Assembly (NCBI GenBank): GCA_001603275.1
Contig: LUYM01000006.1
Coordinates: 186,001-250,000, forward strand
Direction: 5' to 3'
Length of the DNA: 64,000 bases
Source: Actinomycetales bacterium Actino_02
GTDB lineage: Bacteria > Actinomycetota > Actinomycetes > Propionibacteriales > Propionibacteriaceae
The notes under the pieces were generated by a model that was not told the origin of the DNA, searched no databases, and worked only from the letters and a program-made list of their open reading frames with translations. Of the stretch, positions 174 through 2,206 are shown in pieces. Each line of letters starts with the position of its first letter. Position 1 is the stretch's first letter. A program made the translations under genes and the position numbers.

Positions 174-1295
174 CTAGAGCCAGCCCTGGCGCCGGAAGGT
201 GCGGTACAGCAGCAGGCAGACGGTCGCCATCCCGATCAGCACCGCCGGGTAGCCCCACGGGCTGGCCAGCTCGGGCATGAACTGGAAGTTCATCCCGTAG
301 ATGCCGGCGATCATCGTCGGGACGGCCGCAATCGCCACCCAGGCCGAGATCTTGCGCATGTCCTCGTTCTCCGAGACCGAGAGTCGGGCGACGGCGGCCT
401 GCAGGATCGACGACATCACTTCGTCGTAGCCGCCCACCTGCTCACGGACCTGTTCGAGGTGATCGTGCACGTCCAGGAAGTACTGCCGCAAGTCGCGGTC
501 GCCCTGCTGGTCGGCGAGCTTGCGCAGCGGGCCGCCGAGCGGACCGACCGTCCGCTTCATCTCGACCAGGTCTCGCTTGAGCTGGTAGATGCGCTCGACC
601 TGTGGCGTGCCGCCGGGGGCGAACACGTGGCTCTCGATCTCGTCGACGTCCTCGCCCACCTCGTCCGCGACGCGCAGATAGTTGTCCACCACGCTGTCGA
701 TCACGCCGTGCAACACCGCGATCGGGCCGAGGCGCAGCTGCTCGGGGCGAGACTCGAGGGTTCGGCGCACCTGACCCAGCGGTGCGAGCTGCCCGTGTCG
801 CACCGACAGGGCGTACCACGAGCCGACCAGGACGGTCGCCGTTCCGGTTTGGACGATCTCGCCGCCCTCGCTGCGGACGTCGCTGTCGATGTAGCCCAGG
901 GTGCGCATCGAAAGGAACGTGGTGCCGTCGTCGTGGCGCTCGAGCTTGGGACGCTGCCGCGAGTTGCCCGCGTCCTCCACCGCCAGCGGGTGCAGGTCGA
1001 ACACGTGACGCAGGGCGTCCAGCTGTTCGGGGGTCGGCTCGAACAGGCCCAGCCAGACGAAGCCGTTCCCGGCTGCTGCCGCGCGGCAGGCTGCCGGGAA
1101 TTCCGCGGCGGGCTGGCGCTCGCCGTCGACGTAGTGTGCCCAGTCGACCGCTGCGAGCAGGGGGTCGCTCGCTGGGCGCGCGGCGACCAGCTCGGGTTCG
1201 ATCAGGCGGACGGGTGTCGCCCGCCTCCGGGCGACCATGGGGCGCAGGCCAGTCGGCAGGCCCAGGCGTGGGTAGATCGGGGTGTTGGAGTTCAT
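174..1295 (-). CDS. corA: CorA-family magnesium/divalent cation transporter
   Basis: The 373-aa protein has the CorA layout: a long cytoplasmic alpha/beta domain, a stalk helix (about residues 230-300) and two C-terminal membrane segments. The signature YGMNF ends the first segment (AAVPTMIAGIYGMNF) and a short basic tail follows the second (LLLYRTFRRQGWL). CorA forms a pentameric channel importing Mg2+ (also Co2+ or Ni2+) down the membrane potential. The length is normal for actinobacterial members. The ATG at 1295 has a GGAGC Shine-Dalgarno at 1301-1305. The 5' leader is unusual: it holds a proline-rich upstream ORF and hairpins, one of which could cover this ribosome binding site (separate entries), suggesting Mg2+-dependent expression. 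Specificity for Mg2+ is inferred from the family. Confidence 0.93.
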   Translation of the reverse strand: MNSNTPIYPRLGLPTGLRPMVARRRATPVRLIEPELVAARPASDPLLAAVDWAHYVDGERQPAAEFPAACRAAAAGNGFVWLGLFEPTPEQLDALRHVFDLHPLAVEDAGNSRQRPKLERHDDGTTFLSMRTLGYIDSDVRSEGGEIVQTGTATVLVGSWYALSVRHGQLAPLGQVRRTLESRPEQLRLGPIAVLHGVIDSVVDNYLRVADEVGEDVDEIESHVFAPGGTPQVERIYQLKRDLVEMKRTVGPLGGPLRKLADQQGDRDLRQYFLDVHDHLEQVREQVGGYDEVMSSILQAAVARLSVSENEDMRKISAWVAIAAVPTMIAGIYGMNFQFMPELASPWGYPAVLIGMATVCLLLYRTFRRQGWL

Positions 1296-1300
1296 GCGTT

Positions 1301-1359
1301 GCTCCTTCAGGTGGAGCCCGCAGCAGTCTGACGCAGTCAGCTCACAAAGGTGCTGCGGG
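1301..1359 (-). promoter_or_regulatory. corA leader hairpins, possible attenuator/RBS switch
   Basis: In the corA leader RNA, CCCGCAGCA inside the leader ORF (1351-1359) pairs perfectly with TGCTGCGGG (1317-1325). The loop contains a second hairpin, CTGAC-TGC-GTCAG (1328-1340), spanning the leader ORF stop codon. Just downstream GCTCC (1313-1317) can pair with GGAGC (1301-1305), the corA Shine-Dalgarno. The arms at 1317 touch, so the two structures compete at their boundary. A ribosome paused on the proline codons or released early would change which hairpin forms. There is no U-tract, so an RBS switch or Rho-dependent control is more likely than an intrinsic terminator. Confidence 0.55.
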
Positions 1360-1399
1360 AGGTCGGCGGGATGGGTATCAGGGGACTACCAGGTGACAT
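1337..1399 (-). CDS. Proline-rich leader peptide upstream of corA
   Basis: A 20-codon ORF begins ATG at 1397-1399 and stops TGA at 1337-1339, ending 41 bases before the corA start. Prolines are at positions 3, 6, 9, 11 and 12 (MSPGSPLIPIPP...). It has a near-ideal Shine-Dalgarno (AGGAGG at 1408-1413, 8 bases from the ATG), stronger than that of corA itself. Short proline-rich leader peptides upstream of Mg2+ transporter genes are known from Salmonella (mgtL, and a leader ORF for corA), where ribosome stalling or drop-off at low Mg2+ or low Pro-tRNA changes leader RNA folding. The ORF was found by reading the leader; its regulatory role here is inferred. Confidence 0.7.
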   Translation of the reverse strand: MSPGSPLIPIPPTSRSTFVS

Positions 1400-1414
1400 C
1401 CGCCTCACCTCCTT

Positions 1415-1988
1415 CATTCGAGCGCCACGGCGCATGACCGCGTGATCCAGGAGAAGGCTAGACCTCCGCGACGGCGGACGAAAACCGTCCGCCGGTCCCG
1501 AGGATGAGCCGCGATCATGCAGGTGAGCCCGATCTCGGCGCCCACGGGAACAGCCGGGTGAGCAGGGCGTAGATCAGGGCGACGCTGACCGTGACCTGGT
1601 TGGCCTCAAGGGCGGGAACCAGTGGGAGCGCGCCGACAGGCCGTCCACTGCCACCCGGCAAGGGCCGTCCGAATGAGGGTGGAGGCCGCCGTCGTCGTCC
1701 ACCCGCAGACGGCGATCACGTCCGAGCCACGAACCCCCCACGCTGAGCCACTGCCCGGACGGAGAGTGGGCTTCATTTCGGGGTGGGCGAGCTGGCACAT
1801 TCGTGGCGAGGTCTTGCTCGATCGTGCCGCCCTGAGCTTGGCGGCCCGAGCCGATGGTTGAATCACGTCGGTCTGACGGGGCGCCGCACGACTCGGCTCG
1901 TCCGCCGCCGTCCGCCCGAGCGAAGGGATTGGTGAGCCGAGTGGCTACGGGAAGTGGCGGTGAGCGCACACGGTTCCTCGGACTGGCG
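1415..1988. other. Intergenic stretch without a supported gene
   Basis: Between the corA leader and the LtrA remnant I see no convincing gene. On the reverse strand an open frame ending at the TGA at 1515-1517 encodes a hydrophobic tail (QVTVSVALIYALLTRLFPW) that could be the last membrane helix of a decayed membrane protein, but no family signature is visible upstream. Other open frames here are rich in Arg, Ser and Pro and look like GC-driven shadows. Together with the neighbouring LtrA fragment this looks like eroded DNA. Confidence 0.4.
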
Positions 1989-2177
1989 ATGAGCCAGGAG
2001 GGGCATCGGGCCACCCGGCTCGAGCTGTTCTTCGATCTGGCCTTCGTGTTCGCCTTCACTCAGCTCAGTCGGTTGATGGCGCTTCAGCACAACGCGGACG
2101 CCGGGGCGCCGACCGGCCTGGGCCGATCCGCGCCCCGGACGCCGCCTCCCGATGGCGGTCAGGAGGCGGCGCGGTGA
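1989..2177 (+). pseudogene. Low temperature requirement protein A (LtrA) N-terminal remnant
   Basis: The frame contains ATRLELFFDLAFVFAFTQLS, matching the strongly conserved N-terminal helix of LtrA membrane proteins (LELFFDLxFVFAxTQ). LtrA proteins are about 400 residues with many membrane helices. Here the similarity stops after about 35 residues and the frame ends in a low-complexity Pro/Gly/Arg tail at 2177. The open frame continues upstream of the ATG at 1989, so the ancestral start is unclear. The next real gene runs the other way from 2216. I read this as a truncated, non-functional fragment. Confidence 0.6.
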
Positions 2178-2206
2178 GGGGCCGAGAGGAGTAGCTCCCT
2201 CACCGC
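2171..2206 (-). terminator. Hairpin terminator for the GH35 operon
   Basis: A perfect 10-bp inverted repeat (GCGGTGAGGG at 2171-2180, CCCTCACCGC at 2197-2206) encloses a 16-base loop, starting 9 bases after the stop of the minus-strand gene at 2216. It lacks a strong U-tract, as is common for terminators in high-GC Gram-positives. It overlaps the tail of the LtrA remnant on the other strand. Confidence 0.5.

Follow-up and report, generated by a model that had tools for sequence, protein, structure and literature searches.

Mg2+ leader peptides are an established type of control element, and those that we found in print are enterobacterial. In the parts of the reports that were accessible, ribosomes translating MgtL of Escherichia coli are described as dropping off at the destabilizing EPDP motif at low Mg2+, an effect countered by EttA (PMC11282234), E. 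coli corA as regulated by intracellular Mg2+ via corL translation and Rho (PMC11552253), and MgtQ of Salmonella mgtB as a translation-aborting upstream open reading frame (uORF) with acidic codons, which frees the Shine–Dalgarno sequence (SD) of the Mg2+ transporter gene (PMC8092293). As far as the available portions of the two surveys go, the corA motif has 325 representatives, from Gammaproteobacteria and metagenomic DNA only (PMC6429828), and the mgtE motif is confined to Thioalkalivibrio (PMC11109978). An actinobacterial case, the pe20 leader of Mycobacterium tuberculosis, combines an M-box with uORFs, rare codons, SD/anti-SD pairing and Rho, according to the accessible text (PMC12810186). 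Our search of the open-access literature, with subscription papers and preprints outside its scope, turned up no description of a corA leader in Actinobacteria.

The window, by which we mean the whole 64,000-nucleotide stretch of the Actinomycetales bacterium Actino_02 genome that was analysed, encodes a CorA-family protein in which the GMN motif can be read as YGMNF. An initial annotation of the letters had placed a short proline-rich ORF with its own ribosome binding site ahead of this gene, and re-reading the sequence found the 20 codons, the binding site and prolines 3, 6, 9, 11 and 12 where it had put them (Table 1). The leader stop lies 41 nt before the corA start. A consensus scan returned no sigma-70-type site; the possible −10 element of Table 1 was read by eye. 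Upstream of that element, at 1472–1494 on the minus strand, stands a 9-bp inverted repeat, CGGCGGACG-gtttt-CGTCCGCCG, of which a degenerate copy was seen by eye in L004 only, among the other leader-bearing genomes of the genus. Further out, a plus-strand ORF fragment (1854–2177, ...RLELFFDLAFVFAFTQLSRLM...) is cut short and is perhaps a gene remnant; we take it to resemble the start of an LtrA-like membrane protein.

Table 1. Positions of corA, its leader and the associated signals and stems in the window (minus-strand features read from high to low coordinates).
Feature	Position	Strand	Description
corA	174..1295	−	Regulated gene; CorA-family Mg2+/divalent-cation transporter, 373 aa; Pfam PF01544, E 1.2e-51
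corA Shine–Dalgarno	1302..1308	−	GAAGGAG
Leader ORF	1337..1399	−	Read 1399–1337; 20 codons + TGA, MSPGSPLIPIPPTSRSTFVS; frame and length the same in 6/6 window-clade genomes
Leader ORF Shine–Dalgarno	1405..1414	−	AAGGAGGTGA, read 1414–1405
40-nt conserved core	1373..1412	−	SD to codon 9; 2 variable columns in 6 genomes; kin in f4, f11 and f20
Possible −10 element	1455..1460	−	TAGCCT (TAnnnT), by eye only
Stem A, 5′ side	1397..1412	−	SD (1412–1407) and GGATG (1401–1397), the latter including the start codon; minimum-energy fold
Stem A, 3′ side	1358..1373	−	CATCC (1373–1369) and ACCTCC (1363–1358), within the leader ORF
Stem B, 5′ arm	1351..1359	−	End of leader ORF, CCCGCAGCA; 9 bp, 1359–1351 with 1325–1317; 53/53 cells paired, two covarying pairs
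Stem B, 3′ arm	1317..1325	−	TGCTGCGGG
Stem C, 5′ arm (anti-SD)	1313..1317	−	GCTCC; 5 bp, 1317–1313 with 1305–1301; 29/30 cells paired, 7-nt loop in 6/6
Stem C, 3′ arm	1301..1305	−	GGAGC, covers the corA SD

Orthologues of corA with at least 66% identity occur in nine genomes of the same genus, the window's included, and six of the nine carry a leader of 20 codons ending in TGA; these six, again counting the window's own, are referred to as the window clade. Among 30 genomes of the genus, strong matches to the leader (E ≤ 1e-10) were found in those six only, one apiece; a seventh match, in G002, is weak (E 0.007) and sits on a contig different from that of its corA. The leader model matches one site in the L001 genome, whose second CorA (G000:C6:627930–628811) is not preceded by a leader of this kind within the 500 nt that were read. 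The remaining three orthologues (L036–L038), all without the leader, form a sister clade in the corA tree. About 75–80 nt before their likely corA start stand repeats like GTTCACCTGAGGTTCA (the exact form is that of L037), which we take to resemble a PHO box; the same gene is perhaps under different control there.

Aligning the upstream regions of the window clade, the check that the initial annotation had proposed, showed SD, start codon, 20 codons and an invariant stop in all six genomes, with compensatory changes at two pairs of stem B. The corA gene itself has drifted to a mean nucleotide identity of 0.80 (0.65 at third positions), and none of its 969 windows of 40 nt has as few as the two variable columns of the leader core. 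When the comparison is restricted to the first nine codons of the leader, 10 of 328 nine-codon corA windows are equally conserved. Codons 16–20 are 62% identical across the clade. By these counts the conservation of the leader is beyond chance.

Related leaders were found in other families, two of which, f4 and f20, we take by guess to be Actinopolymorphaceae and Streptosporangiaceae, respectively. In f4, a family of the same order whose corA is 52–54% identical, each of the eight genomes carries a uORF of 20 codons, with a strong SD and a GTG start (for example MKPACPCSTRVLRRPPTVSR), beginning 170–213 nt before corA and ending in TAG (six leaders) or TGA (two). No indels fall inside the window-clade or f4 leader ORFs, and several lie between stop and corA. 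Proline richness, prominent in the initial annotation, holds within the window clade, where all six leaders keep prolines 3, 6, 9 and 12 and have Pro or Leu at position 11, but not beyond it: f4 leaders carry 0 to 5 prolines, and a high proline content is not in itself what these alignments conserve. Related uORFs, 26–45 codons long, also occur in f20, and once in f11 (L209, from the same genome as L175, a fragmented assembly with 6% contamination; it was kept out of the f20 counts). GGAGGT of the leader SD is unvarying across the 27 leaders of alignment A4; 17 of 18 f20 leaders entered alignments A6 and A7 (L197 was omitted), and in the f20 leaders L255, L261 and L269, outside the 27, GGGGG replaces GGAGG.

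A model built from all leaders (R1) gave 20 matches at E ≤ 1e-6 in 394 genomes of the class, which are those of the window's genome, 18 f20 genomes and f11, and all 20 stand before a CorA gene; at E ≤ 0.05 matches occur in 110 of the 394, with no CorA downstream of the weaker matches L212 and L213 or of the second copies L222–L226. An f20-only model recovered four of the eight f4 leaders and none of the six window-clade leaders at E ≤ 1, these six sites scoring E 0.09–2.6 when unfiltered. A model of f20 and f4 leaders, containing no window-clade sequences, found three of the six (the window, L033 and L039) at E of about 0.002 and L175 at 0.01; it missed L004, L034 and L035, and the leaderless control loci had no match at E ≤ 5. 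These scores support a single family comprising the f20, f4 and window-clade leaders, with an N-terminus of roughly M-x-[PST]-[GA]-x-P before corA, of which the window leader would be a divergent member, the whole being distributed over four actinobacterial families; the E-values that link the window leader to those of f20 as homologues are modest.

No leader was found in f2, f7, f21, f22, f31 and others with the same CorA subfamily among 65 sources, apart from the weak L158 (E 0.14); the model may have missed some there, because it missed diverged leaders in f20. A tree of 78 CorA proteins unites f4 and f2 with the window clade and its three sisters that lack the leader (90/94). Since f20 and f11 are placed elsewhere, the leader would be either old, with several losses, or spread. 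A 21-nt pattern allowed three mismatches matched 111 of 391 genomes of the order, exact matches being confined to four genomes of the same genus. Kribbella-like uORFs of the form M[VL]IV[VD]PL were rejected, since they read as the start of a divergent gene on the opposite strand. In genus g56 of f20, a second leader copy (MTSGSSPQP..., MSSGSSPQP...) stands before a hydrophobic small ORF of about 60 residues, not corA (L222:503–527 on the plus strand, L223:2048–2024 on the minus strand and L225:540–564 on the plus strand; also L224 and L226); the small ORF, MTITISVPFTLPQ... in L223, gave nothing significant in Pfam.

Across 150 f20 genomes there are 80 matches to the leader model (E ≤ 1e-5), and every one of them ends 181–361 nt upstream of a same-strand corA match. 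A leader-associated corA (E ≤ 1e-90) is present in 87 of the 150 genomes, and the other 63 have zero leader matches. For the seven corA genes that the model missed, a diverged leader was found by reading in each, with a weak SD in L255, and the leader thus precedes corA in 87 of 87 genomes (the loci fetched for reading were 20 of the 87, namely these seven and 13 divergent matches). Thirteen of the 87 contain a second, more distant corA match, at which there is no leader match. That the leader is an ordinary conserved 5′ UTR, without a regulatory role and alike through recent common ancestry, would fit a window clade consisting of one genus and the 10 corA stretches that match its first nine codons, yet it is contradicted by the comparison with 40-nt windows of the drifted corA and by the link of leader to corA in f20, as part of a leader found in four families; we give this explanation hardly any credence.

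Turning to the peptide, 35 f20 leaders have Gly at residue 4 (35/35), Asp or Glu at residue 5 (35/35) and Pro at residue 6 (34/35), written with three, three and four codons, respectively. One-step differences in codons 4–6 number 10 synonymous against 2 non-synonymous, where 25% synonymous is expected (P = 4e-5, in a test that ignores relatedness and for codons picked after seeing the data); the corresponding values are P = 0.007 for codons 2–9 and P = 0.59 for codons 10–12. Of the 35 leaders, 17 had been fetched as divergent or model-missed, and L255, L261 and L269, missed by the scan and outside the test, conform by eye. Because Gly4–Asp/Glu5–Pro6 is fixed while its codons vary synonymously, selection in f20 seems to act on the nascent peptide, whose motif is comparable to EPDP of enterobacterial MgtL. 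In the f4 leaders synonymous steps are not in excess (5 of 21, against 25% expected), and in codons 2–9 of the window clade both of two changes are synonymous, too few to tell. The window peptide has PGSP and further prolines and no acidic residue, and most f4 peptides are also without acid.

The same data bear on two other explanations. If the peptide acted in trans as a micropeptide, on CorA or on the membrane, the genomic link to corA and the conserved N-terminus would be accounted for, but not the poorly conserved C-terminal part, given the divergence of codons 16–20 in the window clade and the varying sequences and lengths in f20, and no hydrophobic membrane segment is apparent by eye; we regard this as very improbable. 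A role of the core as an RNA element, that is, a riboswitch or protein-binding site with conserved RNA structure and an incidental ORF, would be in keeping with a window-clade DNA that is nearly invariant even at synonymous sites, with the inclusion of SD and start codon in stem A, and with AGT at codon 8 in 33 of 35 f20 and 8 of 8 f4 leaders. Set against this, the core shared by f4 and f20 has no conserved fold (consensus energy −1.96 kcal/mol, no covarying pair), codons 4–6 drift synonymously in f20, frame, stop and length are kept in two clades, and Rfam gave no match in window 1100–2200 at E ≤ 5 and two weak, irrelevant matches only in eight related loci. We consider an RNA element improbable, and because that core has no conserved fold, translation is indicated rather than an aptamer.

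Rare codons open the window leader (TCA 1.5, CCT 2.0, AGT 3.4 and ATA 0.1 per thousand); TCA as codon 2, AGT as codon 5 and ATA as codon 8 are invariant in the six window-clade genomes. The low GC3 of codons 2–9 is equalled by 3 of the 29 ORFs of the window and is partly a general gene-start effect here. At 1383–1393 on the minus strand, the leader contains CCTGGTAGTCC, which we take to be an 11-nt stretch of the 790 loop (helix 24) of 16S rRNA; it is whole in three of six window-clade leaders, the f4 and f20 leaders share at most 6 nt of it, and the match is probably due to chance.

Three stems can be drawn in the window leader. In stem A, which the initial annotation did not include, the leader's own SD (1412–1407) pairs with its own codons 13–14 (1363–1358), and over the six genomes 40 of 42 cells are paired in the SD stem and 30 of 30 in the GGATG stem. 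The two hairpins that it did describe, B and C, are present where it placed them. Two pairs of stem B vary among A-U, G-U and G-C over the six genomes and one pair is lost in L033; an equally long helix arises in 15 of 500 shuffles of the window sequence and, in the other five genomes, in 16 to 96 of 500, which makes stem B only mildly unusual in a single sequence. With a z-score of −1.65, the leader does not fold with unusual stability. In f4, too, the ORF end has a 9-bp downstream partner: 97% of the cells pair, and in two pairs both bases have changed. The contrast with the controls is mild here: 21 to 59 of 500 shuffles score as high on the informative measures, with no slid version close, and in helix length five of eight leaders stand at 11–32 of 500 shuffles, the other three (85, 226 and 211 of 500) being not outstanding. 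A conserved pairing of the f20 uORF with the corA SD was dropped, as the pairing is not kept.

The proposal that B and C compete did not survive this analysis: they are not alternatives, because they share base 1317 only and both belong to the minimum-energy fold. We also modelled folding of the RNA without a ribosome or with one at six positions and read out the unpaired fraction of the corA SD. No consistent switch emerged at that SD; the window clade stays closed (mean unpaired 0.15–0.22), with means of 0.17–0.34 in f4 and 0.36–0.62 in f20, and in the model leader translation would have no alternative RNA folds to choose from in the window clade.

A rival explanation is that the uORF acts as a plain translational gate. 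Ribosomes recruited by it and ending their run shortly before corA would help to open stem C, or would re-initiate; corA would then follow general translation capacity with no specific sensing of Mg2+ or of the nascent peptide. The strong leader SD facing a corA SD closed in stem C speaks for such a gate, as do the conserved stop and the distance from stop to corA start, 41–58 nt in the six window-clade genomes and 46–84 nt in the 18 f20 leaders measured; the f4 distances of 107–150 nt do not. The gate would also fail to account for the retention of Gly-Asp/Glu-Pro as amino acids in f20 and for the much stronger conservation of the first nine codons compared with codons 16–20. We judge it unlikely, though with enough in its favour to be taken seriously.

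Taken together, the leader SD, start codon and N-terminal peptide are conserved and linked to corA in several families, with ORF length and stop also preserved in the window clade and f4; by comparison of these sequences, this is a conserved control element common to several actinobacterial families, whose action itself is predicted. The central idea of the initial annotation, a corA-regulating leader peptide of Actinobacteria unlike the enterobacterial RNA, is in this form strongly supported by comparison, its competing hairpins excepted. As to the action, we favour, with slightly better than even confidence, a translated uORF that controls corA in cis through ribosome slowing or drop-off at the N-terminus. 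Having initiated at the strong SD, the ribosome would slow down or lose stability while making the first 6 to 12 residues of the short ORF, a stretch that is proline-rich with rare codons in the window and contains Gly-Asp-Pro in f20. Progress of the ribosome through codons 3–12 would then decide whether the downstream leader is folded, ribosome-covered or open to Rho, and with it corA expression; in the window clade and f4 the end of the ORF can pair with the interval before corA, and the window clade additionally has a stem that covers the corA SD. Control at the level of translation or Rho is suggested because there is no terminator-like site in 1290–1700 and no M-box (RF00380) in the window's genome at E ≤ 0.001, a search that matched 2 of 14 control genomes (B. 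subtilis and L. lactis).

The likeliest signal would be low Mg2+, which weakens ribosomes, with incomplete translation of the leader turning corA on as for MgtL, CorL and MgtQ; both signal and direction of control are a guess by analogy. Specific Mg2+ sensing by the nascent chain, argued from the same analogy, has in our estimate somewhat less than an even chance. The window's genome encodes a protein above the cut-off of TIGR03719, which we take to be the EttA family. Following from this concept, Actinobacteria may have independently evolved a nascent-peptide Mg2+ sensor for corA that dispenses with the enterobacterial RNA folds, a suggestion that we advance tentatively and would lean a little against: an early [PST]-Gly-Asp/Glu-Pro or Pro-Gly-Ser-Pro would destabilize Mg2+-poor ribosomes, and drop-off would switch the transporter on. 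If true, the sensor would represent convergent evolution of intrinsic ribosome destabilization as a metal sensor, and a second widespread family of Mg2+ leaders would make the tying of uptake to the stability of translating ribosomes a general solution. The natural peptide series GDP, GEP, PGSP and PACP would make the sensing residues testable, as well as the action of EttA, EF-P or bL31 outside enterobacteria.

None of the described systems, whether MgtL, CorL and the corA motif, the mgtE motif, MgtQ or the pe20 leader, matches the actinobacterial element. The pe20 leader is likewise, in the accessible part of its description, an actinobacterial Mg2+ leader with uORFs, rare codons and SD/anti-SD pairing; it differs in being M-box-based and in controlling the pe20 operon rather than corA, with no M-box in the window's genome or locus. 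MgtQ, as far as its available description extends, has 8 residues and lies between two genes of an operon, and we saw no sequence relation between it and the leader. What the present leader has in common with MgtL and CorL is the arrangement read from the sequence, a short predicted uORF immediately before the gene for a Mg2+ transporter. CorL of E. coli and Salmonella shares the gene, since it too is a uORF before a corA with an SD that a stem is predicted to sequester, whereas peptide and structures differ and the actinobacterial leader has no Rfam match. MgtL of E. coli and Salmonella precedes mgtA, a P-type ATPase gene, rather than corA, no shared RNA is known, and unlike MgtL the window's own peptide lacks an acidic residue. 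Yet prolines within the first six residues are common to both and, in f20, an acidic residue followed by Pro falls within those six; the L012 peptide, MKPGYPPSTPVLRRRLAPMR, resembles MgtL by eye. The analogy suggested by this early acidic/proline motif is with MgtL.
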